Assembly (NCBI RefSeq): GCF_014773225.1
Contig: NZ_JACXAJ010000005.1
Coordinates: forward strand, 62,001 to 126,000
Direction: 5' to 3'
Source: Pontibacter aquaedesilientis
GTDB lineage: Bacteria; Bacteroidota; Bacteroidia; Cytophagales; Hymenobacteraceae
Length of the DNA stretch: 64,000 nt
The notes under the pieces are model-generated. The model was given only the letters and a program-made list of their open reading frames with translations. It did no database searches and had not been told where the DNA came from. Both the position numbers and the translations under genes were made by a program. This document shows positions 5,466 through 63,762 of the stretch, in pieces; the first letter of the stretch is position 1, and each line of letters opens with the position of its first letter.

Positions 5466-6419
5466 TTACTTGATGCGATAGCCGAGCACGATCTCATGCG
5501 ATCCTGCACTTTGGTGGCGCAAAGGCGAAACAGTGATATCGTAGGTATAGCTCAGTTGGAACTGCTCTTTGAACTGCACACCTACCAGGCCCACGATGGC
5601 GTCCTGGGTACGGTAAGAAACACCTGCCCATACCTGGTCATCATACACCGTCTTCTGGCGGCGCTTGCTCATGTGATAGGCTCCCTTCAGGTTAAAGTCT
5701 GCCTGGATCGGGGCACCCTGTACATACTTCAGCAAAGCCGAGGGCATCAACCGGATCTTATCGTGCACATCGAAGTTATACCCCCCCGACACAAACAAAT
5801 GGCGTGAAAGCCGGCTTGATTCTTCTGCTCCGTCTGCGTCGTGAATTTTGTTGCCGAGCACCTGGAACAGGGATGCTCCAACGTAAAACTCCTCTGAGTG
5901 CAGGAACACGCCCACTGTCAGGTCAGGCATAAAGGCGTCGATACGGCCTTGGTTGGTGACGGGGTCGCGCTCATTAGAGCCATCCGCCAGGTATACCTTG
6001 TTAGGGTCGAATCGGAACTGCTGGAAACCGGCAAAGAAGCCTGATGACAAAAACAGGCTCCTGTTAAGCGGCACGTGGTAGGCATAAGATGCCAGCGCAC
6101 CGGTGCGGGTTGTCGGCCCGGTCTGGTCGGTATACACCATGCCGCCTGCCCCATGGAAAGGCTGCGCTCTCCGGCTGCGTTTCAGGTTGCGGTTGAACAA
6201 GGCCCCTTCGCCACTCAGGTAAAAGGTTTTGGGAGCCCCATCAAATCCGACCCACTGGTTGCGGTACCCCGCCTTTAAACTGACATCCTTCTCGAACCCG
6301 GCTACCGCCGGGTTGAGAATGAAGTAATTGGTCATGTACTGGCTGTAAAGGGCTTTCTGCTGGGCCATGGCTCCCGAAGCCATCAGCAGAAAGAAAAGCA
6401 CTAATATTCTGTTTTTCAT
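5466..6419 (-). CDS. PorP/SprF family outer-membrane protein of the type IX secretion system
   Basis: A 317-residue protein with a signal peptide (cleavage after MASGAMAQ). Directly after it comes the family hallmark YSQYMTNYFILNPAVAG (residues about 25-41). The rest alternates aromatic and polar residues as in a beta-barrel and ends on a short hydrophobic strand. PorP/SprF proteins are usually encoded next to giant proteins with a gliding-type C-terminal domain and are needed for their secretion or surface attachment. That is the case here: the gene starts 24 bp after the adhesin stop on the same strand, so the two are almost certainly co-transcribed. Which of the several family members it is cannot be told from sequence alone. 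Confidence 0.93.
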   Translation of the reverse strand: MKNRILVLFFLLMASGAMAQQKALYSQYMTNYFILNPAVAGFEKDVSLKAGYRNQWVGFDGAPKTFYLSGEGALFNRNLKRSRRAQPFHGAGGMVYTDQTGPTTRTGALASYAYHVPLNRSLFLSSGFFAGFQQFRFDPNKVYLADGSNERDPVTNQGRIDAFMPDLTVGVFLHSEEFYVGASLFQVLGNKIHDADGAEESSRLSRHLFVSGGYNFDVHDKIRLMPSALLKYVQGAPIQADFNLKGAYHMSKRRQKTVYDDQVWAGVSYRTQDAIVGLVGVQFKEQFQLSYTYDITVSPLRHQSAGSHEIVLGYRIK

Positions 6420-6443: not shown

Positions 6444-9400
6444 TTAACGCATGATGGTTACTGACGTCTTGATGGCTGGCTTTGCATCTCCGAACTCGAT
6501 GATACTGTAATAGGTACCATCTGGCAGACGCTTGCCATTGTGGGTACCGTCCCACGGCTTGGCATAGCCGTTTGATTCGAATACCGGGCTGCCCCAGCGG
6601 TTGTACACCGTTACCTTGCAGTTAGGGTACAGCTCTGTGAGGTTGCGGATTTCCCAGCGATCATTCATGCCGTCGCCGTTTGGCGTAAATCCGCTCGGGA
6701 TGTCGAGCTCGGCCAGGCCGCCTACTGTAAAGCTGACTTCTGCCGTACAGCCATTGGCGTCTTTCACTACCAACCAGTGCTCTCCGCCACGTAGGTTTTT
6801 GAACACAGATTCGGATGTGAACTGGCCATAGTTCAGCTGGTAGGTATAAGGGGCCGTGCCACCGCTAATGGATTTCACGGAGGCGCTTCCTGAGTTAGGC
6901 TGCCCTACGGCACCTTCTGCGATGCTCATCTCCACCTGTATTGGCGCTGGCTCCTTCACTTCCACTGCCCCTACCGTAATGGAGCAAGTGCTGGAGAAGC
7001 GGGTGATCAGTTGGTAAGTACCCTTCGCGAGACCCGTGAAAACAGAGTCCTTCTGGAAGGTCTTGCCATTGTCGATGCTGTACTCCGTGTTGGCGTCTTT
7101 GCCGGTTGCCGAGATGGTGATCACACCACTGGTCTCGCCGGGGCAGGCGATGTGCCGTACCGAAGACACTTTGCTGCTGAGCCCTTTCATGGTTAGCGGC
7201 ACCGAGAAGGTACAGCCTTTCGCGTCTTTCACGGTTAGGGTATAGCTACCAGGCGCTACGTTATCCAGCGTGGCAGATGCAGAGAAGTTAGTACCGTCCA
7301 GTGAGTAGGCATAAGGAGCCGTACCGCCGATCACCTGATCCACAACCACCTGTCCACCGTTCGCGCCGCAGCTGGCGGCTGACACACGGAATTTCACATC
7401 CGTCAGCACAGGGCTGTTGCCAATCGTCACGCTATTGCTCAGGGTACAGCCACTTGCGTCTTTTACAAACACCTGGTAGTTTCCTTCTGCAAGACCAGTG
7501 AAGGTTGCTTGGTCCGTATAGGTTGTGCCGTCGATGCTGTAGGTATAAGGACGCTGACCACCCACGATTTCTGAGATCGAAATGCGGCCATTGCGCTCAC
7601 CGCAGCTGGCGTCGGTGCCCGTTACCTTGAATGACTCTACGCCTCCGCTATTCACCACACGCTGGTTTTGCGTCAGCGTACATCCCTCAGCGTCTTTCAC
7701 GGTCACGTCGTAGGTCCCTGCTGCCAGGTTGGCAAAAGTTGCCGATGCCTGGAACGATGTTCCGTTGATGCTGTAGGTATAAGGAGCTTTTCCCCCGGTT
7801 ACCGAAGTCACCTTAATCGAACCGTTAGACGCGCCGCAGGTTGCCTGGGCAGAAGTGATAACGGCCTCTTTCGGACCTTTCTCTCCTACTGTTACTGTCG
7901 TGGAGGTGCTGCAGCCGTTGGCGTCCTTGGCATATACCTGGTACTCGCCTGGTGCCAGACCGGCAAATGCACCGGCAGTCTGGAAGCGTCTATTATCCAG
8001 CGAATAGGTATAAGGTGCCGTACCGCCCGTTACAGTTCCTACCGTGATCGTGCCGTCGCTTGCGGAGCACGAAGCAGGTGTGGCAGTGGCCACAAGGGCC
8101 GATGGTCCGGCTACGTTTTCTACCACCACTTTCCTGTCGAGCGTACAGCCGTTGGCGTCGCGTACCGTCACGGTGTGCTCGCCAGCCGCAACCGAAGCAA
8201 AGGCAGGGCTGCTCTGGAAGTCGCCTCCGTTCAGGGCATAGGTATAAGGGGCCATGCCACCGGATACGCCGCTTACCGTAACGCTGCCGTTGGCCTCGCC
8301 GCAGCTGGCAGCTGTTGCCGCCAGCTCATACCCGGCAGGGCCGGCTATGCTCTCGATCACAACAGTTTTGCTGAAGGTACAGCCGTTGGCGTCTTTCACG
8401 GTGATGGTGTTGTTGCCGGCAGCCAGGCCCGTCAGGTTAGCGGAGCTCTGGAAGTCGCTGCCATTCTTGCTGTAGGTATACGGCGCCTTTCCACCCGTCA
8501 CGCCACTCACCACCACGCTGCCATTGCTGGCACCGCAGGTCGCAGCTTTCGGTTCCATAGCGAAGCCTTCCGGTCCGTTTGCGTTGGTTACTGAAATCGT
8601 TTTAACAAAGACGCAGCCATTGGCATCCTTCACCGTTACCTGGTACTCGGCAGCAGCAAGCGATGCAAAAAAAGCAGCGGACTGGAAGTTAGAACCGTTG
8701 ATGGAGTAGGTATAAGGAGCGGTTCCGCCCGTTACGCTACTCACACTGATCTGGCCGTTGGCGTTTCCGCAAGTCGTCGGTTGAGCAATAGCGATCAGGT
8801 CGGATGGACCGGCTACGTCAGTTACCTCGATTGACTCGGTGTGTGTACAGCCATTGGCGTCTTTCACGGTTAGAGTATAGGTTCCGGCAGTCAGGCCAGC
8901 AAAGCTAGCCCCACTCTGGAAGTTTCCTCCGTTGATGCGGTAGGTATAAGGAGCAGCACCACCTTGCACCGAAGTGATTCGGATACTACCGTTGTCGCTG
9001 CCGCAGGTTGAGCTGGTGGTTGCCGCCACAAAACTTCCCGGACCGTCCTTGTCAACTTTCACTGTAGTGCTCACTTCACAACCGTTGGCGTCGCGCACTG
9101 TCAGGGTATAGTTTCCGGAGGCGAGGCCAGTGAAGGCTGTTGCACTCTGGAAGTTGCCTCCGTTCAGACTGTAGGTATAAGGAGCCGTACCGCCTGTTAC
9201 GCTGCCCGCTATGATGCGGCCGTCGTTGTCGGCGCAGGTAGCAGGCTGGGCGCTAGCTGTCACAACCGTAGGACCAGCGATATCGGCCAATGTGATCACT
9301 TTCTCAAAGGTACAGCCGTTGGCGTCTTTCACCGTGATGGTATGGTTTCCGGCTGACAGACCTGAGAAGGTAGCCGCCGCCTGGAAATTAGCCCCGTCTA

Positions 9401-12400
9401 GTGAGTAAGCATAAGGAGCGGTTCCACCTGAAACAGTTGAGACAGTCAGTTCGCCATTGGCTGCGCCGCAGGTAGAGGCTTTGGTAGAAGCGGTCAGGTC
9501 TGTTGGCCCGGCAATGTTCTCCACCACGATCTCCTTGCTGAAGGTACAGCCGTTGGCGTCGCGCACCGTCAGGGTATAGGTTCCGGCCAGTAGCGCTTCG
9601 AAGCGGGTCCCTGCCTGGAAGCTGCTTCCGTCCAGCGAGTAGGTATAGCCGGCTGTTCCGCCCGTCACGCCGGTTACCGTGATCGTGCCGTTGGCGCTGC
9701 CACAGGTAGAAGACGTGCTGGCCAAGGTCATCTCGCTTGGTCCGGCCACATGTTCGATGGTTATTTCCTTCGAGATCACGCAGCCGTTGGCGTCTTTTAC
9801 TGTGATGGTATGCGTTCCGGCCAACAGACCTGTCAGCGTTGCCGAAGACTGGAAGTTCACGCCGTCCTTGCTGTAGGTATATGGAGCCGTTCCTTCTGTT
9901 ACTTCGCTCACCGTGATGCTGCCGTTGGCACGACCGCAACTTGCGCTCTGCGTTGTAGCCATGAAGGCCGATGGACCCGGGATGTTCTCAAGTGTAACAG
10001 CCTGTATATAGAGACAGCCGTTGGCGTCCTTCACCGTTACCTGGTAGTTACCGGCGGCCAACGATGCGAACGTTGTCGCATTTTGGAAGTTGGTTCCGTC
10101 CAGGCTGTAGGTATAAGGAGCGGTGCCACCCATCACTTCACTGATGTTGAAAGAAGCATTTGGATCGCCACAGGTGCTTGACTGAACACGCACTGCCAGC
10201 TCTGAAGGACCAGCAATGTCGCTTACCTGAATCTGACGTGTCACTATACAGCCTTTCGCGTCCTTCACCGTGATGGTGTGCGTGCCGGCCACAAAGCCCG
10301 TCAATCTTGCATCGGTCTGGAAGGTAGTGCCGTCCTTGCTGTAGGTATAAGGAGCAAAACCGCCTGTTACCTCTCCCACCGTGATCGTGCCATTGTTGCC
10401 GCCGCAGGTAGAAGCTGTGGAAGTACTGGCGAAGGTAGTTGGGATATTCTTGCTGATGGTTACGGTCGTAGTGGCTTCACAACTGTTGGCGTCGCGCACC
10501 GTCAGGGTATAGCTTCCGGAGGCGAGACCTGTGAAGGCCGTGCCGCTCTGGAAGACCGTGCCGTTGATGGAGTAGGTATAAGGTGAAGTGCCGCCCGTTA
10601 CCGCACCAGCCGTGATCGAGCCGTCGTTATCGGCGCAGCTGGCCGCAGCCGATGTGGCTGCCACTGCAGTTGGGCCGGCTATGTTGGTCACCGTGAACGA
10701 CCTAGAAACCGTGCAGCCGTTAGCGTCTTTCACCGTGATGGTATAAGTTCCGGCTGACATACCTGAGAAAGTAGCAGTGGTTTGGAAATTCACCCCGTCC
10801 CTGCTGTAGGTATAAGGGGCCGTTCCGCCAGTCGTGCCTGTTACCATGATCTCGCCGTTGGCCGCGCCGCAAGTCGAGGCTTCAGTAGAAGCGGTCAGGT
10901 CCGTTGGCCCGGCGATGTTCTCCACCACGATCTCCTTGCTGAAGGTACAGCCGTTGGCGTCGCGCACCGTCAGGGTATAGGTTCCGGCCAGTAGCGCTTC
11001 GAAGCGGGTGCCGGCCTGGAAGCTGTTTCCATCCAGCGAGTAGGTATAGCCGGCCGTTCCGCCCGTCACGCCGGTTACCGTGATTGTGCCGTTGGCGCTG
11101 CCACAGGTAGAAGACGTGCTGGCCAGTGTCATCTCGCTTGGTCCGGCCACATCTTCCACTTCGATTATCTTAGCGAAAGTACAGCCGTTGGCATCGCGAA
11201 CGGTGATGTTGTATTTGCCTGCCGCCAGGGAACCGAAGTTGGCTGAGGCCTGGAAATTCACATCGTCTTTGCTGTAAGTATAAGGAGCCGTGCCACCGTC
11301 TATATCCGTGATCGCGAGGCTGGCATTGCTGTTGCCACAAGTTGAAGAAGCTGCCGTCAACACAAAGTCGCTTGGACCTGCGATGTCTTTCACTTCCACA
11401 CTTTCACTGCCCAAACAACCATTGCCATCCTTCACGGTAACAGCATAAGAACCAGCCGTTATGTTTTCGAATACATTGGAAGACTGGTAGGTAAGCCCGT
11501 CGATGCTGTAGGTATAAGGTACTACCCCTCCACTCACATTGTTAATGGCAATGCGGCCATTGCTGGCACTACAAGTTGTAGCCTGTGTACTGACTGTAAA
11601 CTCCGGTCCGGCTACGTTGCTTACCGCTACTGACTTGGCGAAAGTACAGCCATTGGCGTCTTTCACGGTGATGGTATGGGAACCAGCCGTAAAGCCCATC
11701 AGCGTAGCAGATGCCTGGAAGTTGACGCCGTCCTTACTGTAGGTATAAGGAGCCGTACCGCCTGTCACCGTTCCGACCGTGATGCTGCCGTTGCTGTTGC
11801 CGCAAGTAGAGGCGACGGTTGAGCTGGCAAAATTGGTTGGCACATTCGTGTTCACCTTCACTGCGGTCGTCACGGTACAGCCGTTGGCGTCTTTGGCCGT
11901 TACCGTATAGTTCCCTGCTGCCAGCCCGGTAAAGACTTTAGATGCCTGGAAATTATTGCCGTCTATCGAGTAAGTATAAGCAGGTGTACCGCCTGTTGCG
12001 TTTCCGACCGTAATCGAACCGTCGTTGTCGGCGCAAGTGGCTGGCTGGGAAGTAGCTGTTACAGCCGTTGGCCCACCGGTGTTAGTTACCGTATAGCTTT
12101 GTGTAAAGGTACAGCCGTTGGCGTCCTTCACCGTGATGCTATAGTTACCGGCAGCCAAACCTGCAAAAGCAGTCGCCTCCTGGAAATTCACCCCGTCTTT
12201 GCTGTAGGTATACGGCGCCGTGCCTCCCGATACAGTTGTAATTGTCAGTGTGCCATTGCTACTGCCGCAAGTTGAAGGCGTTGTGGTGGCTATTAATCCG
12301 TCTGGTCCGGCGATGTTTTCCACTGCAACTTCTTTCTGATAGGCACAGCCGTTGGCATCTTTCACCGTGATGGTATAGGTACCGGCCAGTAAGCCTGAGA

Positions 12401-15400
12401 AAGAAGCAGCTTGCTGGTATGTGCCGTTATTCAGGGCATAGGTATAAGGAGCCGTTCCGCCTGTTACCGCATTTACCGTCACCGTACCATTGCGATTGCC
12501 ACAGGTAGAAGCAACACTGGCAAGGGTCAGGTCAGTTGGGCCTGCTATGTTGGTTACTTCAATTGTCTGTGTGGCAACGCAACCATTGGCGTCTTTCACG
12601 GCGATCTCGTAGCTGCCTGCTGCCAACGCCGTGAATGACTTGGCACTTTGGAAAGCGCCGTTGTCGATGCGGTAAGTATAAGGAGCCGTGCCGCCTGTCA
12701 CGTCGCCGATGGTGATGCCGCCGTTGCTGTTGCTGCACGTGCTCGACTGCGCCTGCATGGCAAAGCGAGGACCGGCCACATTGGTTACAGCAAATGTTTT
12801 GGCAAACGTACACCCATTTCCATCTTTCACGGTGATGGTGTGCGTGCCTTCGGTAAGATCTGTGAATGTAGCTGAGGCCTGGAAATTCACGCCATCTATA
12901 CTATAAGTATAAGTCGCTGTTCCACCAGTTACTCCGGTTACCGTTAAGGACCCGTTCGGATTGCCGCAGGTAGAAGAAGAAGCTGTTGCGGTTAGATCAG
13001 AAGGTCCGGCCACATCGCTTACTGTGATCTGACGAGCAACTGTACAGCCCTTGGCGTCCTTCACCGTGATGGTGTGCGACCCAGCCACAAAGCCCGTCAG
13101 CGTGGATGAAGTCTGGAAGTTGGTGCCGTCCTTGCTGTAGGTATAAGGAGCAAAACCGCCCGTCACCGTGCCGACCGTGATAGTGCCATTATTGCTACCG
13201 CAGGTAGAGGACTTGGAGGTGCTGGCGAAGGTGGTCGGGATGTTCTTGGTGACAGTGACCGTCCGGGTCACCGCGCAGCCGTTGGCGTCGCGCACCGTCA
13301 GGGTGTAACTGCCGGAGGCCAGGCCGGTGAAGGCCGTGCCGCTCTGGAAGACCGTGCCGTTGATGGAGTAGGTATAGGGCGAAGTGCCGCCCGTTACCGC
13401 GCCGGCCGTGATCGAACCGTCGTTGTCGGTGCAGCTGGCCGCAGCCGAAGTAGCAGCTACAGCTGTCGGGCCGGCAATGTTGGTCACTGTAAACGACTTG
13501 GCCACGGTACAGCCGTTGGCGTCCTTCACCGTGATATTGTGGGTACCGGCCATCAGCCCTGTGAAGGCAGTTGAACTCTGGAAGTTCACCCCGTCCCTGC
13601 TGTAGGTATAAGGGGCCGTTCCGCCTGTCGTGCCTGTTACCGTGATCTCGCCGTTGGCCGCGCCGCAGGTCGAGGCTTTGGTGGAAGCAGCCAGGTCCGT
13701 TGGCCCGGCGATGTTGGCTACCGCTGCCTGCTTGGAGAAAACGCAGCCGTTGGCATCCTTCACCGTGATCGTGTAAGCTCCCTCGGACAGAGAGCCGAAA
13801 GTGGTCGAGGTTTGGAAAGTGAGGCCGTCCTTGCTGTAGGTATAGGGAGCCGTGCCGCCCATCACCGTGCCCACTGTGATCGTGCCGTTCGCATTCCCAC
13901 AAGTTGCAGAAGCATTGGCAAGGGTTAGGTCTGACGGACCCGCAATATTCAGAACTTCCACTTCTTTAGTGGCCGTACAGCCATTGGCGTCCTTTACTGC
14001 GATGGTATGGGTGCCTGCTGCCAGCCCTGTGAAGTTTGCTTCGCTTTGGAAATCCCCACCGTTGATGCTGTAGACATAAGGAGTAGTGCCTCCGTTTACC
14101 TCGCTTACACTAATGCGTCCGTTGCTGGCCCCGCAGGTCGAGGCTTGCGCTGTGGCTGCAAAAGTCGGCCCTGCAATGTTATTTACTGCCACATCCTTGG
14201 CAAACGTACAGCCATTGGCATCTTTCACTGTTACCGCGTAGGTTCTGGCTGTAAGACCGCTGAAGGTAGAAGAGGATTGGAAGTTGAAGCCATCTATACT
14301 ATAGGTATAGCCGGAAGTTCCTCCGGTTACACTGCTCACCGTGAACTCACCGTTGCTGGCACCGCAAGTCGAGGACTTGACAGTGGCAACTAAGTCAGAA
14401 GGTCCGGCCACATCGCTTACAGTCACCTGGCGGGCAACTGTACAGCCTTTCGCGTCCTTCACGGTGATCGTGTGCGACCCAGCCGTAAAGCCCGTCAGCG
14501 TTGACGAGGCCTGGAAGTTGGTGCCGTCCTTGCTGTAGGTGTAAGGAGCAAAACCGCCCGTCACCGTGCCGACCGTGATCGTGCCGTTGCTGTTGCCGCA
14601 GGTGGAGGACTTGGCAGTGCTGGCGAAGGTGGTCGGGATGTTCTTGGTGACAGTTACCGTCCGGGTCACCGCGCAGCCGTTGGCGTCGCGCACCGTCAGG
14701 GTGTAGCTGCCGGAGGCGAGGCTCGAAAAGGCCGTGCCGCTCTGGAAGGTGGTACCGTTGATGGAGTAGGTATAGGGAGCCGTGCCGCCCGTCACTGCGC
14801 CCGCCGTAATCGAGCCGTCGTTGTCGGCACAACTGGCTGGTTGTGAAGTGGCAGCAACCGCCGTTGGGCCGGCGATGTTGCTTATCACCACTTGTTGCGT
14901 GAAGGTACAGCCGTTGGCGTCTTTCACCGTGATGGTATGCGTGCCTGCTGCCAGCCCTGAGAAAGTAACAGCGGCCTGGAAGTTCACCCCATCCCTGCTG
15001 TAGGTATAAGGAGAAGTGCCGCCCGTTGTGCCCGTTACCGTGATCTCGCCGTTGGCCGTGCCGCAGGTCGAGGCTTTGGTAGAAGCCGCCAGATCCGTTG
15101 GCCCGGCGATGTTGGCCACGTCTGCCTGCTTGGAGAAAACGCAGCCGTTGGCGTCCTTCACCGTGATCGTGTAAGCACCCTCGGCCAGAGCGCCAAAAGT
15201 GGTTGAGGTCTGGAAGTTGATGCCGTCCTTGCTGTAGGTATAAGGGGCTGTGCCGCCTGTTACGGCGCCCACTACCAGAGAGCCGTTGTTGGCTCCGCAG
15301 GTTGCAGCATTGGTCGTCAGGGCAAATCCGTTTGGTCCGGCTACGTCTCCTACTACTACCTCTTTCGCGAAAATACAGCCATTGGCATCTCTTACGGTAA

Positions 15401-18400
15401 TCGTGTAGGTACCCGCAAGCAGCGATCCGAACGTATCAGCGGTTTGGAAATTAGTACCGTCTTTGCTGTAGGTATAGCCCGAAGTTCCGCCGGACACCGC
15501 CGTTACCCGAATGCTGCCATTGTTGCGACCGCAGGAGGTTGTGGTTACACTCGCCGTAAAACCGGATGGACCGGCTACATCAGGAATCACCACCGCTTGT
15601 GTATGCGTACAGCCGTTGGCGTCGCGCACTGTTACGTTGTATGTTCTGGCGATCAGTGCCGTGAAGGTGGCCGAAGTCTGGAAATTGGTGTTGTCTATGC
15701 TATAGGTATAGCCGGAAGTTCCTCCGGTCACACTGCTCACCGTGAACTCACCGTTGCTGGCACCGCAGGTGGATGCCTTAACAGTAGTAGTGAAAGCAGA
15801 CGGACCGGCAATATTGGTGACGGTGATAGATTTTGAGAAGGTACAGTTATTGGCATCCTTCACCGTGATGGTATAGTTACCAGCCAGCAGGTTGCTAAAG
15901 GTTGTCCCGCTTTGGAATGCAGCGCCGTCAATAGAATAGGTATATGGTGAGACACCTCCCGTTGTGCTATTGACACGCACCACACCATTGCTGGCACCAC
16001 AGGTGCTGGCCGTGCTGGTCAGGTTGAGGTTAGTAGGACCGGCAATATTGGTCACCGCTACAGAAGCCGTTTTTATACAGCCGTTGGCATCGCGCACCGT
16101 GATGGTGTAAGTTCCGGCCGCCAGGTTGTCGAACAGGGCTGCATCCTGGAAAGTCGAACCGTCCTTGCTGTATTGGAACGGTGCCGTTCCGCCGCTCACC
16201 GTCACATTGATTCGACCGTTGCTGTTACCGCAGGTAGATGAGGTGGCAGCTGCTGTAAACTCAGGACCGGCAATGTTTGCCACCACAACCGTTTCGGTGT
16301 ACACGCAGCCGTTGGCATCCTTCACAGTTACCTGATAATTGCCTGCCACCAGCGAGGAGAACACGCTTGAACTCTGGAATGCTCCCCCGTTGATGGAATA
16401 GGTATAGTTCTGGGTACCGCCTGTTACGGCACTCACCGTGAAGCTGCCATTCGGGTTGCCACAGGTAGAGGACTGTACTGTGGCTTGTAGATCGGTTGGG
16501 CCCGGAATATTGGTGATTGTTACAGTTTTAGCAACTGTACAGCCACGGGCATCTTTAATCGTGATCGTGTGCGTGCCTTCAGCCAGCCCAGTCAGCGTAG
16601 CCGATGTCTGGAAGGTTGTACCGTTTTTGCTGTAAGTATAAGGCGAAGTACCCCCGATGATATTACTCACCACTACCCTGCCATTGCTGTTACCACAAGT
16701 GGCAGCAGTTGGAGTAACTGTGAAATCTGTCGGCATTACTTTGGCAACCGAAACCGAAGTGCTTGTGATACAACCGTTGGCGTCGCGGGCCGTCAGGGTG
16801 TAGTTGCCGGAGGCCAGCCCCGTGAAGACCGTGCCGCTCTGGAAGACCGTGCCGTTGATGGAGTAGGTATAGGGCGAAGTGCCGCCCGTCACCGCGCCGG
16901 CCGTGATCGAGCCATCGTTGTCGGCGCAGCTGGCCGCAGCCGACGTGGCCGCTACTGCCGTCGGGCCAGCAACGTTTGTTACTGTAAACGACTTGGCCAC
17001 AATACAACCATTGGCGTCCTTTACCGTGATTGTGTGGGTGCCTGCTGCCAGCCCTGTGAAGGCAGTGGAACTCTGGAAGTTCACCCCGTCCCTGCTATAG
17101 GTATAAGGAGAAGTACCGCCCGTCGTGCCCGTTACCGTGATCTCGCCGTTGGCCGCGCCACAAGTAGTGGATTTGGTAGAAGCCGCAAAATCGGTTGGAC
17201 CGGAGATGTTGGATACCGTTACCTGCTTTGAGAAAACGCAGCCGTTAGCATCCATCACCGTGATCGTATAAGCGCCCTCTGCCAGAGAACCGAAAGTGGT
17301 CGAGGCTTGGAAGTTCACCCCGTCTTTGCTGTATGTATAGGGAGCTGTGCCGCCTGTTACCTTACTCACCATAACAGCACCATTAGCACGTCCGCAGGTT
17401 GCAGCAGTACTGGTCAGTGTCAGGTTAGATGGGCCTGCTATGTTAGTTACTTCAATTGTCTGTATGGCAACACAACTATTGGCGTCTTTCACTGCGATCT
17501 CGTAATTGCCTGCCGCTAACGACGTGAATGCCTTGGCACTTTGGAAGGCGCCGTTGCCGATACGGTAGGTATAAGGAGCCGTGCCGCTCGTCACGTCGCC
17601 GATGGTGATGCTGCCGTTGCTGTTGCCGCACGTGCTTGACTGCGCGGTGGCTACAAAAGTCGGCCCTGCTATATTATTCACTGCTACATCCCTTGCAAAC
17701 GTACAGCCATTGGCATCTTTCACCATTACCGTATAGGTTCTGGCTGCAAGACCGCTGAATGTAGTTGAGGTCTGGAAATTCACGCCATCTATACTATAGG
17801 TATAAGTCGCTGTTCCGCCAGTTACTCCGGTTACCGTTAAGGCCCCGTTCGGGTTCCCGCAGGTAGAGGAAGAAGCGGTTGCGGTTAGATCAGAAGGTCC
17901 GGCCACATCAGTTACTGTGATTTGACGAGCAATTGTACAGCCTTTCGCGTCCTTCACCGTGATCGTGTGCGAACCAGCCACAAAGCCCGTCAGCGTTGCA
18001 GAAGTCTGGAAGTTGGTGCCGTCCTTGCTGTAGGTATAAGGGCCGAAACCTCCCGTCACGCCGGTTACTGTGATGGTGCCGTTATTGCTACCGCAGGTAG
18101 AGGACTTGGAAGTGCTGGCGAAGGTGGTCGGGATGTTCTTGGTGACATTGACCACTCTGGTCACCGCGCAGCCGTTGGCGTCGCGGGCTGTCAGGGTGTA
18201 GCTGCCGGAGGCAAGGCCCGAAAAGACCGTGCCGCTCTGGAAGGTAGTGCCGTTGATAGAGTAGGTATAGGGAGCCGTACCGCCCGTCACCGCACCGGCC
18301 GTGATCGAGCCGTCGTTATCGGCGCAGCTGGCCGCAGCCGAGGTGGCAGCAACCGCCGTCGGGCCGGCGATGTTGGTCACTGTGAACGACTTGGCCACGG

Positions 18401-20717
18401 TACAGCCGTTGGCGTCTTTCACCGTGATGGTATGCGTGCCTGCTGCCAGCCCTGTGAAGGCAGTGGAACTCTGGAAGTTCACCCCGTCCCTGCTGTAGGT
18501 ATAAGGAGCCGTGCCGCCTGTCGTGCCTGTTACCGTGATCTCGCCGTTGGCCGCGCCACAGGTCGAGGCTTTGGTGGAAGCCGCAAAATCGGTTGGACCG
18601 GCGATGTTGGTTACCGTTACAGGTTTACTCAAGGTACAGCCTTTGGCGTCGCGCACCCAAACTGTGTGCGCCCCGGCTGCGAAACCAGTGAGCGTCGCAG
18701 AAGCCTGATAATTCGTACCGTCTTTGCTATACTCATAACCAGCCACACCACCTGTAACACCTGAAATCGTTACCGTACCGTTCGGGTTGCCGCAAGTAGA
18801 GGAAGCAGACGTGACTGTAAAATTAGTAAGTGTAGCCTGCGCCACGGAAACGGAAGCAGTCACCATACAACCGTTGGCGTCTTTCGCCCTTAAGGTGTAG
18901 TTTCCGGAGGCCAGACCCGTGAAGGCCGTGCTGCTTTGGAAGGTGGTGCCGTTGATGGAGTAGGTATAGGGAGCCGTACCGCCTGTTACCGCACCAGCCG
19001 TGATCGAGCCGTCGTTGTTGTGGCAGCTTGCCGGTTGAGATGTGGCAGATACGGCTGTTGGTCCTGGCACATTAGTTAGTGTGAACGATTTGGCCATGGT
19101 ACAGCCGTTGGCGTCCTTCACCGTGATGTTGTGGGTTCCGGCCATCAGCCCTGCGAAAGTCGTGGAACTCTGAAAGTTCGTCCCGTCCTTGCTGTAGGTA
19201 TAGGGCGAAGTGCCACCTGACACGTTATTGATGACAATCTGCCCGTTCGCATTGCCGCAAGTTGTGTTGCTAGGTGTGGCGGTAAAGTCAGACGGGCCTG
19301 TTACCTGCGTGATAGAGAAGCTCTTCATAACAGAACAGCCCTTGCTATCAGTAACAGTGACGGTATAAGTACCGGCTGTCTTATTGTTGATAGAGGCAGT
19401 GGTCTCACCACTGCTCCAGCGGTACGTAACAGCCCCCTGTGCGCCCGTCACACTGGCGGAGACACTACCCAAAGTGCCGTTACAGATTACTGGCGTGCCC
19501 GTCAGGTTCACCTCCATCTGATAAAAGGAGATCAGCACTTCATCGCTCACGGGTGAGCAATCTCCGTTTCCGGTCGATTCTAAAGTCAGCCGCACTGAAC
19601 CTGCGCTAAGCTCGGCTGCCGTTGGGGTATAGGTAGCGTTTAGGTCAGTTCTGCTCGAGAAAGTACCGGCTCCACCTATCCACCTGCCACCGGTAGCAGC
19701 TGTCACTGTACCTGCCAGTTGCACCGTGCTGCCTGCGCAAACCAATTGGTCAGGGCCGGCATTGGCCGAGAGGTTTGATACAACGTTTGTCGTGGCTGAG
19801 AACTCCTGGCAGTTCGTAGAATTTTTCGGAACTGCCACGAACTTGTGTCTTCCAACTGTCGAGGCATTGTAGGTCAGGTTTCGACCAACAAGGGTATTAC
19901 TCGGATCATACCAAAAATAGTCAAACTCGCCATCGCCGCCTGTCACGCTTCCTGTGAGTGTGGCACTACTCCCACCCGGGCATATAATGGCCGGATCTGG
20001 TCCAATAGACACGACAGGTTTCGGCAGGAAATATACCCTTACTTCATCATAGTGCGATGAGTTTGTTGCACACTCACTAGGGCGTACCGCACCATTAACA
20101 CGATAGTCTACAAATGGAGGCGCTGTCTCATCTGGTGTTACAGTAGGGGTGGCGGATGTTACATCGCTGAGAAATTTCTCATAGCCTCTGCCTGATATAT
20201 CCTCCCATCTTATGGAGCCTTCCAGAAAAGTAGCCGGCGCACTTAGCTGTTTGGAGCATCCACCTATCACCGAAACATCATCCATCGGTTCGAATGCCGC
20301 CAAGGAAGTAATAGCATAAACATTCGCATTGTTACCGGGCTTACAAATTGTTAAGGTGATGGTGTTGGATCCTGTCCGGGGAATACACATCAGCTGACCG
20401 ACAGGGTAAGTTTGTGTACCGCAGTCAACCGTATAGAACATAGCACCGCCAGGCTCTGCTCCGGATGGAAGGCTCAGCTCCAATTGGGAAGCGTCTTTAT
20501 CCAGCGTAACTATGATCTGTACACAGTTACTGCCACCACAGGCACTGCCACTCCTCCTAACGGACTGTGATTTCATGTAGCCATTGGGCTGCCCTGTCAA
20601 ATCCATTCTGATAGTCTGCACTTGGGCAAACACGTTTAAGGATGTCGCTAGCTGCAACATCCCTAAGAGTAAAATCACAAGAAGGAGGTTTTTTCTTCGG
20701 GTAGAGCTTATTTCCAT
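6444..20717 (-). CDS. Giant SprB-like repeat adhesin with gliding-type T9SS C-terminal sorting domain
   Basis: A single uninterrupted frame of 4757 residues. A signal peptide (about residues 1-32, ending NVFAQ) is followed by a unique N-terminal region to about residue 230. PKD/Ig-like domains follow (ICPGGSSATLTGSV; NAGPDQLVCAGSTVQL). Then come about 55 tandem repeats of 77-78 residues resembling SprB repeats. The consensus runs AGPxDL ... STCGxxNGxI ... GGTAPYTYSxDGxxFQ ... GLxAGxYTITVKDANGC. Two cysteines per unit (in TCG and NGC) suggest disulphides. The last about 85 residues (FTPNGDGMNDRWEI ... VYNRWG ... PDGTYY) are the gliding motility-associated C-terminal domain that directs T9SS type B secretion. 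SprB of Flavobacterium johnsoniae is a comparable mobile surface adhesin. The partner PorP/SprF gene lies 24 bp downstream. The repeats are closely related in DNA, so assembly collapse or expansion is possible. Confidence 0.93.
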   Translation of the reverse strand: MEISSTRRKNLLLVILLLGMLQLATSLNVFAQVQTIRMDLTGQPNGYMKSQSVRRSGSACGGSNCVQIIVTLDKDASQLELSLPSGAEPGGAMFYTVDCGTQTYPVGQLMCIPRTGSNTITLTICKPGNNANVYAITSLAAFEPMDDVSVIGGCSKQLSAPATFLEGSIRWEDISGRGYEKFLSDVTSATPTVTPDETAPPFVDYRVNGAVRPSECATNSSHYDEVRVYFLPKPVVSIGPDPAIICPGGSSATLTGSVTGGDGEFDYFWYDPSNTLVGRNLTYNASTVGRHKFVAVPKNSTNCQEFSATTNVVSNLSANAGPDQLVCAGSTVQLAGTVTAATGGRWIGGAGTFSSRTDLNATYTPTAAELSAGSVRLTLESTGNGDCSPVSDEVLISFYQMEVNLTGTPVICNGTLGSVSASVTGAQGAVTYRWSSGETTASINNKTAGTYTVTVTDSKGCSVMKSFSITQVTGPSDFTATPSNTTCGNANGQIVINNVSGGTSPYTYSKDGTNFQSSTTFAGLMAGTHNITVKDANGCTMAKSFTLTNVPGPTAVSATSQPASCHNNDGSITAGAVTGGTAPYTYSINGTTFQSSTAFTGLASGNYTLRAKDANGCMVTASVSVAQATLTNFTVTSASSTCGNPNGTVTISGVTGGVAGYEYSKDGTNYQASATLTGFAAGAHTVWVRDAKGCTLSKPVTVTNIAGPTDFAASTKASTCGAANGEITVTGTTGGTAPYTYSRDGVNFQSSTAFTGLAAGTHTITVKDANGCTVAKSFTVTNIAGPTAVAATSAAASCADNDGSITAGAVTGGTAPYTYSINGTTFQSGTVFSGLASGSYTLTARDANGCAVTRVVNVTKNIPTTFASTSKSSTCGSNNGTITVTGVTGGFGPYTYSKDGTNFQTSATLTGFVAGSHTITVKDAKGCTIARQITVTDVAGPSDLTATASSSTCGNPNGALTVTGVTGGTATYTYSIDGVNFQTSTTFSGLAARTYTVMVKDANGCTFARDVAVNNIAGPTFVATAQSSTCGNSNGSITIGDVTSGTAPYTYRIGNGAFQSAKAFTSLAAGNYEIAVKDANSCVAIQTIEVTNIAGPSNLTLTSTAATCGRANGAVMVSKVTGGTAPYTYSKDGVNFQASTTFGSLAEGAYTITVMDANGCVFSKQVTVSNISGPTDFAASTKSTTCGAANGEITVTGTTGGTSPYTYSRDGVNFQSSTAFTGLAAGTHTITVKDANGCIVAKSFTVTNVAGPTAVAATSAAASCADNDGSITAGAVTGGTSPYTYSINGTVFQSGTVFTGLASGNYTLTARDANGCITSTSVSVAKVMPTDFTVTPTAATCGNSNGRVVVSNIIGGTSPYTYSKNGTTFQTSATLTGLAEGTHTITIKDARGCTVAKTVTITNIPGPTDLQATVQSSTCGNPNGSFTVSAVTGGTQNYTYSINGGAFQSSSVFSSLVAGNYQVTVKDANGCVYTETVVVANIAGPEFTAAATSSTCGNSNGRINVTVSGGTAPFQYSKDGSTFQDAALFDNLAAGTYTITVRDANGCIKTASVAVTNIAGPTNLNLTSTASTCGASNGVVRVNSTTGGVSPYTYSIDGAAFQSGTTFSNLLAGNYTITVKDANNCTFSKSITVTNIAGPSAFTTTVKASTCGASNGEFTVSSVTGGTSGYTYSIDNTNFQTSATFTALIARTYNVTVRDANGCTHTQAVVIPDVAGPSGFTASVTTTSCGRNNGSIRVTAVSGGTSGYTYSKDGTNFQTADTFGSLLAGTYTITVRDANGCIFAKEVVVGDVAGPNGFALTTNAATCGANNGSLVVGAVTGGTAPYTYSKDGINFQTSTTFGALAEGAYTITVKDANGCVFSKQADVANIAGPTDLAASTKASTCGTANGEITVTGTTGGTSPYTYSRDGVNFQAAVTFSGLAAGTHTITVKDANGCTFTQQVVISNIAGPTAVAATSQPASCADNDGSITAGAVTGGTAPYTYSINGTTFQSGTAFSSLASGSYTLTVRDANGCAVTRTVTVTKNIPTTFASTAKSSTCGNSNGTITVGTVTGGFAPYTYSKDGTNFQASSTLTGFTAGSHTITVKDAKGCTVARQVTVSDVAGPSDLVATVKSSTCGASNGEFTVSSVTGGTSGYTYSIDGFNFQSSSTFSGLTARTYAVTVKDANGCTFAKDVAVNNIAGPTFAATAQASTCGASNGRISVSEVNGGTTPYVYSINGGDFQSEANFTGLAAGTHTIAVKDANGCTATKEVEVLNIAGPSDLTLANASATCGNANGTITVGTVMGGTAPYTYSKDGLTFQTSTTFGSLSEGAYTITVKDANGCVFSKQAAVANIAGPTDLAASTKASTCGAANGEITVTGTTGGTAPYTYSRDGVNFQSSTAFTGLMAGTHNITVKDANGCTVAKSFTVTNIAGPTAVAATSAAASCTDNDGSITAGAVTGGTSPYTYSINGTVFQSGTAFTGLASGSYTLTVRDANGCAVTRTVTVTKNIPTTFASTSKSSTCGSNNGTITVGTVTGGFAPYTYSKDGTNFQTSSTLTGFVAGSHTITVKDAKGCTVARQITVSDVAGPSDLTATASSSTCGNPNGSLTVTGVTGGTATYTYSIDGVNFQASATFTDLTEGTHTITVKDGNGCTFAKTFAVTNVAGPRFAMQAQSSTCSNSNGGITIGDVTGGTAPYTYRIDNGAFQSAKSFTALAAGSYEIAVKDANGCVATQTIEVTNIAGPTDLTLASVASTCGNRNGTVTVNAVTGGTAPYTYALNNGTYQQAASFSGLLAGTYTITVKDANGCAYQKEVAVENIAGPDGLIATTTPSTCGSSNGTLTITTVSGGTAPYTYSKDGVNFQEATAFAGLAAGNYSITVKDANGCTFTQSYTVTNTGGPTAVTATSQPATCADNDGSITVGNATGGTPAYTYSIDGNNFQASKVFTGLAAGNYTVTAKDANGCTVTTAVKVNTNVPTNFASSTVASTCGNSNGSITVGTVTGGTAPYTYSKDGVNFQASATLMGFTAGSHTITVKDANGCTFAKSVAVSNVAGPEFTVSTQATTCSASNGRIAINNVSGGVVPYTYSIDGLTYQSSNVFENITAGSYAVTVKDGNGCLGSESVEVKDIAGPSDFVLTAASSTCGNSNASLAITDIDGGTAPYTYSKDDVNFQASANFGSLAAGKYNITVRDANGCTFAKIIEVEDVAGPSEMTLASTSSTCGSANGTITVTGVTGGTAGYTYSLDGNSFQAGTRFEALLAGTYTLTVRDANGCTFSKEIVVENIAGPTDLTASTEASTCGAANGEIMVTGTTGGTAPYTYSRDGVNFQTTATFSGMSAGTYTITVKDANGCTVSRSFTVTNIAGPTAVAATSAAASCADNDGSITAGAVTGGTSPYTYSINGTVFQSGTAFTGLASGSYTLTVRDANSCEATTTVTISKNIPTTFASTSTASTCGGNNGTITVGEVTGGFAPYTYSKDGTTFQTDARLTGFVAGTHTITVKDAKGCIVTRQIQVSDIAGPSELAVRVQSSTCGDPNASFNISEVMGGTAPYTYSLDGTNFQNATTFASLAAGNYQVTVKDANGCLYIQAVTLENIPGPSAFMATTQSASCGRANGSITVSEVTEGTAPYTYSKDGVNFQSSATLTGLLAGTHTITVKDANGCVISKEITIEHVAGPSEMTLASTSSTCGSANGTITVTGVTGGTAGYTYSLDGSSFQAGTRFEALLAGTYTLTVRDANGCTFSKEIVVENIAGPTDLTASTKASTCGAANGELTVSTVSGGTAPYAYSLDGANFQAAATFSGLSAGNHTITVKDANGCTFEKVITLADIAGPTVVTASAQPATCADNDGRIIAGSVTGGTAPYTYSLNGGNFQSATAFTGLASGNYTLTVRDANGCEVSTTVKVDKDGPGSFVAATTSSTCGSDNGSIRITSVQGGAAPYTYRINGGNFQSGASFAGLTAGTYTLTVKDANGCTHTESIEVTDVAGPSDLIAIAQPTTCGNANGQISVSSVTGGTAPYTYSINGSNFQSAAFFASLAAAEYQVTVKDANGCVFVKTISVTNANGPEGFAMEPKAATCGASNGSVVVSGVTGGKAPYTYSKNGSDFQSSANLTGLAAGNNTITVKDANGCTFSKTVVIESIAGPAGYELAATAASCGEANGSVTVSGVSGGMAPYTYALNGGDFQSSPAFASVAAGEHTVTVRDANGCTLDRKVVVENVAGPSALVATATPASCSASDGTITVGTVTGGTAPYTYSLDNRRFQTAGAFAGLAPGEYQVYAKDANGCSTSTTVTVGEKGPKEAVITSAQATCGASNGSIKVTSVTGGKAPYTYSINGTSFQASATFANLAAGTYDVTVKDAEGCTLTQNQRVVNSGGVESFKVTGTDASCGERNGRISISEIVGGQRPYTYSIDGTTYTDQATFTGLAEGNYQVFVKDASGCTLSNSVTIGNSPVLTDVKFRVSAASCGANGGQVVVDQVIGGTAPYAYSLDGTNFSASATLDNVAPGSYTLTVKDAKGCTFSVPLTMKGLSSKVSSVRHIACPGETSGVITISATGKDANTEYSIDNGKTFQKDSVFTGLAKGTYQLITRFSSTCSITVGAVEVKEPAPIQVEMSIAEGAVGQPNSGSASVKSISGGTAPYTYQLNYGQFTSESVFKNLRGGEHWLVVKDANGCTAEVSFTVGGLAELDIPSGFTPNGDGMNDRWEIRNLTELYPNCKVTVYNRWGSPVFESNGYAKPWDGTHNGKRLPDGTYYSIIEFGDAKPAIKTSVTIMR
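6720..19500 (-). repeat. Tandem array of about 55 SprB-like units, mean 233 bp
   Basis: Reading the translated array, I count 52 canonical units, one divergent unit at the N-terminal side and two at the C-terminal side. Units are 77 or 78 codons long. Near-identical DNA blocks recur at distant positions (for example around 13250-13700, 14650-15080, 16770-17200 and 18160-18600), which implies recent duplication or gene conversion. On the plus strand nearly every unit carries the string GTAGGTATA, encoding part of PYTYS. Confidence 0.92.
9220..19024 (-). repeat. Higher-order repeat: DNDGS subtype spaced by multiples of 699 bp
   Basis: One unit subtype replaces the usual TCGxxNGxI with SCxDNDGS. 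On the plus strand its DNDGS codons (CCGTCGTT or close) begin at 9220, 10621, 12019, 13417, 14815, 16912, 18310 and 19009. The intervals are 1401, 1398, 1398, 1398, 2097, 1398 and 699 bp, that is 6, 6, 6, 6, 9, 6 and 3 units. Each such unit is followed by a subtype that lacks AGP and begins PTxF or similar. Six-unit blocks therefore seem to have been duplicated as modules. Confidence 0.85.
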
Positions 20718-63660: not shown

Positions 63661-63762
63661 TAGAAGTTAGATATTAGATTTATTTATTTATTACTAGCGT
63701 TACTGCTTGTCGCTATTAGAGTTTAACTGAGTCTACAATCTAACATCTACAATCTAACATCT
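63661..63762. repeat. Short direct and inverted repeats in the E2 leader
   Basis: TCTACAATCTAACA occurs twice in tandem (63732-63745 and 63746-63759). An approximate inverted copy lies at 63662-63680 (AGAAGTTAGATATTAGATT). The arms could pair in the leader RNA. Confidence 0.6.

Follow-up and report, generated by a model that had tools for sequence, protein, structure and literature searches.

A higher-order repeat of six-unit blocks in the giant SprB-repeat adhesin of Pontibacter aquaedesilientis and its orthologues

The window analysed here is a stretch of 64,000 nucleotides from Pontibacter aquaedesilientis (contig NZ_JACXAJ010000005.1, positions 62,001 to 126,000), and it carries on the minus strand an open reading frame for a giant adhesin of 4757 amino acid residues (6444–20717, positions being those of the window). 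The protein contains SprB repeats (PF13573, E = 1.9e-284, 38 stretches) and ends in a CHU_C domain, the type IX secretion signal (PF13585, E = 2.4e-24, residues 4672–4752; 6462–6704, minus strand). It is composed of a 471-residue N-terminal region (19305–20717, minus strand), 52 tandem Ig-like units of 77 or 78 residues (7182–19304, minus strand), a few degenerate units and the CHU_C signal. The N-terminal region, which stands outside the array and is closed by a single degenerate unit (19305–19529, minus strand), has a predicted signal helix and is conserved in 37 orthologues; its structure model is poor (pLDDT 62). It is kept across three genera, although many genomes within the genus lack it, and may be an adhesive tip. 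Of the named relatives, the closest are Pontibacter species. The adjoining gene (5466–6419, minus strand) encodes an outer-membrane protein of the PorP/SprF family with 317 residues and no cysteine (PF11751, E = 3.1e-79), and in 36 orthologous regions that were fetched the adhesin likewise has a gene of this family beside it, as is expected of a dedicated partner. At the far end of the window (63732–63762) we noticed a short 14-bp tandem repeat, TCTACAATCTAACA, present in 2.2 copies.

The units of the array belong to six types, here called A to F, that follow one another in a fixed order. Read from the N-terminal end, and always on the minus strand, the array opens with a leading triad (units 1–3, A B C; 18606–19304) that is placed by the unit tree and has lag-3 homology to units 4–5. 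It is followed by the six-unit blocks of units 4–9 (17208–18605, 1398 bp), which have their best match in units 25–30, 21 units away, and of units 10–15 (15813–17207), where A B C precede diverged D E F. An extra triad of D-, E- and F-like units comes next (units 16–18; 15111–15812), in which unit 16 pairs with unit 22 and unit 18 with unit 24; it is likewise placed by the unit tree. Then come the blocks of units 19–24 (13713–15110, 1398 bp), 25–30 (12315–13712, 1398 bp), 31–36 (10917–12314, 1398 bp), 37–42 (9516–10916, 1401 bp) and 43–48 (8115–9515, 1401 bp, diverged), and the four terminal units 49–52 (7182–8114), of which unit 49 is of B type in the unit tree and stands five units past the previous B.

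A preliminary description had recognised this arrangement from the spacing of units with the motif DNDGS, placed at intervals of 3, 6 or 9 units. The first residues of the NDG-type (B) units are 567 (variant HNNDGS), 800, 1266, 1965, 2431, 2897, 3363 and 3830, and the intervals between them (233, 466, 699, 466, 466, 466 and 467 codons, i.e., 699, 1398, 2097, 1398, 1398, 1398 and 1401 bp) are exactly those claimed, the 2097-bp interval being given by the extra triad. The absolute positions were about 4 bp off, and beside the eight B units listed a ninth had been missed (unit 49, SASDG, 7884–8114). The order around B also holds as described, with a TDLxAST unit (type A) before it and an xxxPTxF unit without AGP (type C) after it. 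The exact 1398-bp period is confirmed but adds little information, because every unit has 77 or 78 codons and the exactness follows mostly from this fixed length. The only pattern of charge among the unit types is that C units in the first half of the array mostly carry a positive charge. Tandem Repeats Finder gave no hit to the array, which is presumably explained by its maximum period of 500 bp and by too great a divergence between adjacent units.

The adhesin contains a real higher-order repeat of repeats, in which domains at the same position of the block are closer to each other than to their neighbours. At lag 1 the mean DNA identity of 0.571 falls just short of the shuffled mean, and it is 0.641, 0.606, 0.611 and 0.615 at lags 6, 12, 15 and 21, respectively; the lag-6 value, against a mean of 0.577 for shuffled orders (z = 8.7), was reached in none of 20,000 shuffles. 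A relative with at least 70% identity exists for 30 of the 52 units, and for all 30 it lies a multiple of three units away; in 5000 shuffled orders this was so for 9.5 units on average and for 22 at most. In the unit tree, the types form clades with supports of 0.95–0.96 (A), 0.92 (B), 0.95 (C), 0.99 (D; units 7, 16, 22 and 28) and 0.97 (F; units 9, 18 and 24), and none of the units has its best match next door, so that the outcome which the preliminary description had named as speaking against block copying, neighbours being closest, did not occur.

At the DNA level, the homology tracts listed that exceed about 200 bp were directly observed only at lags divisible by three, lags 13–17 being covered by the unit-level comparison. 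The strongest among those listed is at lag 21 and relates units 4–9 to units 25–30 (86.7% over 1222 aligned columns), and the second, at lag 6, relates units 18.4–22.1 to units 24.4–28.1 (85.6% over 878 aligned columns). These two tracts, with a young one described below, point to recent exchange between same-type units at various distances, which would include copying or conversion between non-adjacent units. The lag-21 match is limited to units 4–9 and does not extend to units 10–24, which rules out that 21 units were simply duplicated in tandem. A young tract at lag 6 lies near units 36 and 42 (94.7% over 307 aligned columns). Unit 36 (10917–11150) and unit 42 (9516–9749) are 96.6% identical, with an exact tract of 95 bp and diverged flanks, and judging from the sequence, some 300 bp seem to have been converted recently. 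When degenerate units are included, 26 of 55 units have their closest relative within the array itself, in each case a multiple of three units away, while in several other species few or no units do so. Homogenisation thus appears to be recent and patchy in P. aquaedesilientis, to which the lack of very close sister genomes also contributes.

The 95-bp tract is the longest exact repeat within the gene and is therefore too short to cause collapse in ordinary assemblies. The genome consists of 18 contigs and was possibly assembled from short reads, but five single-contig genomes (G021, G060, G069, G073 and G078) have this architecture as well, and a misassembled array, raised in the preliminary description as a possible refutation, is scarcely credible as the origin of the pattern.

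Orthologues were sought by means of the N-terminal region, in a first sample that gave 22 genomes of the genus (the present one included) and in a wider family search that gave 37 orthologues with usable arrays from three genera, with one genome per species. The lag-6 signal is present in all 37 arrays (z = 2.2–11.8). The six-type order, whose conservation in the three genera we observed directly, is common to these orthologues, and from this comparison it is older than the species. Some lineages peak highest at lag 11 or 12, 11 corresponding to 6+5. In six orthologues (L054, L058, L061, L073, L077 and L080) the strongest lag is 11 units rather than 6, so that the higher-order period itself has changed, and the G005 and G125 orthologues (L049 and L068) have an additional amplification of three units (A-B-C) near the N-terminal end of the array. 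In the outgroup and in the other type IX protein loci that were fetched, no locus with sufficiently alike repeats stood out for a higher-order signal.

The arrays have from 19 to 67 units, and 20 of the 37 counts (19, 31, 37, 43, 49, 55 and 67) equal 1 modulo 6, the remaining 17 leaving 0, 2, 4 or 5. By parsimony on a tree built from the parts outside the array, the unit count changed 25 times and the count modulo 6 only 13 times (mean 19.1 for random values, 28 of 5000 being as low as 13), and roughly half of the length changes on the tree preserve the count modulo 6. Steps of six are also directly visible when related species are aligned unit by unit: gaps are mostly of exactly six units, with 6 each in G016/G015, G022/G013, G012/G022 and G034/G022, and 6+6 in G000/G010 and G000/G011. 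There are counter-cases, some lineages using 11 (6+5) or differing by one unit (43 vs. 44). From the sequences, this record is most simply read as the gain and loss of six-unit blocks, at times also of three or of 11 (6+5) units, by recombination between units of the same type.

It could be argued that the array grew one unit at a time, with convergent or selected types at every sixth position, since the age and divergence of some same-type units mean that their origin cannot be seen directly. This is contradicted by the lag-21 and lag-6 tracts, which cross several consecutive units and their junctions, and length differences among species come in sixes; we regard growth of this kind as highly improbable. 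The earlier proposal that the array grew by copying six (or three) units at once, and not single units, stands, but not as a recent expansion, since the six-type order is ancient. Simple tandem duplication of blocks is in turn an incomplete account, as some of the youngest copies within the array lie well apart, at lags 15 and 21. The suggestion that the blocks act as recombination units altering adhesin length agrees with the length steps of six among species.

A regular rod structure had also been suggested. A model of units 25–30 gives each domain, with confidence (pLDDT 92.7 per domain), as a beta sandwich with roughly six strands, whereas the orientation of the domains is not fixed (pTM 0.53). 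When solved structures were searched by sequence, this hexad matched only GhpA, the grappling-hook protein of Aureispira sp. CCB-QB1 (profile E = 7.7e-12), which is also the top fold match (Foldseek E = 2e-19; VIA Z 11.2, rmsd 9.6 over 424). Both are type IX secreted giant proteins of Ig-like repeats, with about 21% identity; GhpA of the predatory Aureispira is a heptamer (PMC11205867), whereas the likeness found here is one of sequence and fold only. A six-unit period could reflect a structural or functional need, such as one turn of a superhelical rod or one ligand-binding site for every six domains, in line with proposals for the titin and nebulin super-repeats. The maintenance of the order across three genera, despite about 50–60% identity, and the heptameric rod formed by the only clear solved relative would fit such a need. 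Nevertheless, several lineages have a period of 11 (6+5), and periods of 3, 4, 5 or 9 occur locally; the hexad model shows no fixed orientation and no type-specific functional motif was found, so that a regular rod is unsupported and a structural origin of the period seems improbable.

Block recombination raises the question of neighbouring units. Among the 37 arrays, amino acid identity exceeds 70% in 1 of 1346 adjacent pairs, in 1 of 1309 next-but-one pairs and in 170 of 1161 pairs six units apart, nine of the latter exceeding 90%; under random order the adjacent pairs above 70% would number 26.9 on average, with a minimum of 12 in 2000 orders. Adjacent units are on average 50.6% identical in amino acid sequence, and the identity by lag (0.506 at lag 1, 0.506 at lag 4 and 0.505 at lag 7) indicates that neighbours are no less similar than other pairs of different type. 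What is seen is therefore an absence of alike neighbours and not its cause, the less sure argument from misfolding being inseparable here from plain block copying. Block copying alone could suffice as the reason. The more interesting possibility, which also fits, is that alike neighbours are selected against because they misfold together, and it has precedent in the literature: divergence of neighbouring domains was argued to reduce misfolding (PMC8201768, PMC4660218), and the duplication of several domains at once may be favoured by selection against aggregation (PMC1553488).

We consider it quite probable that array length changes by the gain or loss of whole six-unit blocks, sometimes of three, although we infer the mechanism and the misfolding steps. 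Unequal recombination of the RecA type, together with gene conversion, would drive the gain and loss of blocks. Recombination would pair only units of the same type, different types sharing about 57% DNA identity, and the six-unit phase would thus be self-maintaining once founded. Less surely, single-unit duplications would rarely persist, as identical neighbouring domains misfold together, and the block structure would permit length change yet keep neighbours dissimilar. A purely neutral alternative, in which an early six-unit duplication was followed by in-phase recombination without selection on neighbour similarity, shares this block-recombination core and differs only in the last step. 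It has somewhat less than an even chance of being right: homology between units of the same type would by itself restrict pairing to multiples of three or six, and it is in agreement with neighbours being no less similar than other different-type pairs, but block copying alone must then explain why single-unit tandem duplications are virtually absent. That the higher-order repeat is an evolved answer to a conflict, in which unlike neighbours avoid co-misfolding while kilobase-scale homology six domains apart allows length steps of 466 residues, is a tentative and rather doubtful extension of the block-recombination reading.

The adhesin resembles Flavobacterium johnsoniae SprB/SprF in its SprB repeats, its CHU_C type IX signal and the adjacent PorP/SprF-family gene. 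In F. johnsoniae SprF, a C-terminal C-X-C tail ties the protein to the gliding track by disulfide linkage to GldK (PMC12635249), whereas the partner found here, which has no cysteine, lacks such a motif. None of the seven PorP/SprF proteins read from the P. aquaedesilientis genome has this tail, and the partner homologues beside orthologous adhesins have 0–2 cysteines. Given a partner without the C-X-C tail, the adhesin would more likely be anchored than track-driven. For the track protein GldJ, the best match in the genome scores 146 bits, below the cut-off of 458 bits.

Like the periscope proteins SasG, Rib and Sgo_0707 (PMC8201768, PMC9704523), the adhesin has a surface stalk of folded tandem domains that projects an N-terminal region, and its number of domains varies, probably by recombination, here between species and not between strains. 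The near identity of adjacent repeats that characterises periscope proteins was not found, neighbours being about 50% identical and only one of the 1346 adjacent pairs exceeding 70%, and the unit of exchange is the block of six. It resembles the super-repeats of nebulin and titin, in which domains at equal positions of the super-repeat are closest relatives and several domains are duplicated at once, often in the middle of the array (PMC1553488, PMC10665226). In contrast to these, the present array is bacterial and without introns, no known filament periodicity corresponds to the length of its super-repeat, and gains and losses of blocks can be traced over 37 orthologues. In the open-access library that was searched, nothing relevant was found on higher-order repeats or super-repeats in bacterial adhesins.

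Duplication of multi-domain blocks is known mainly from animal muscle proteins, and its cause is debated. Block-wise duplication of domains is already known, in nebulin and titin, and the adhesin is a well-documented bacterial case of it. The 37 bacterial orthologues, with 19–67 domains, amount to natural replicates in which blocks were gained and lost. They make it possible to test in a bacterium whether block duplication is favoured by selection against co-misfolding, as has been proposed, and they lead to the prediction that the length of the adhesin stalk would change in quantised steps.
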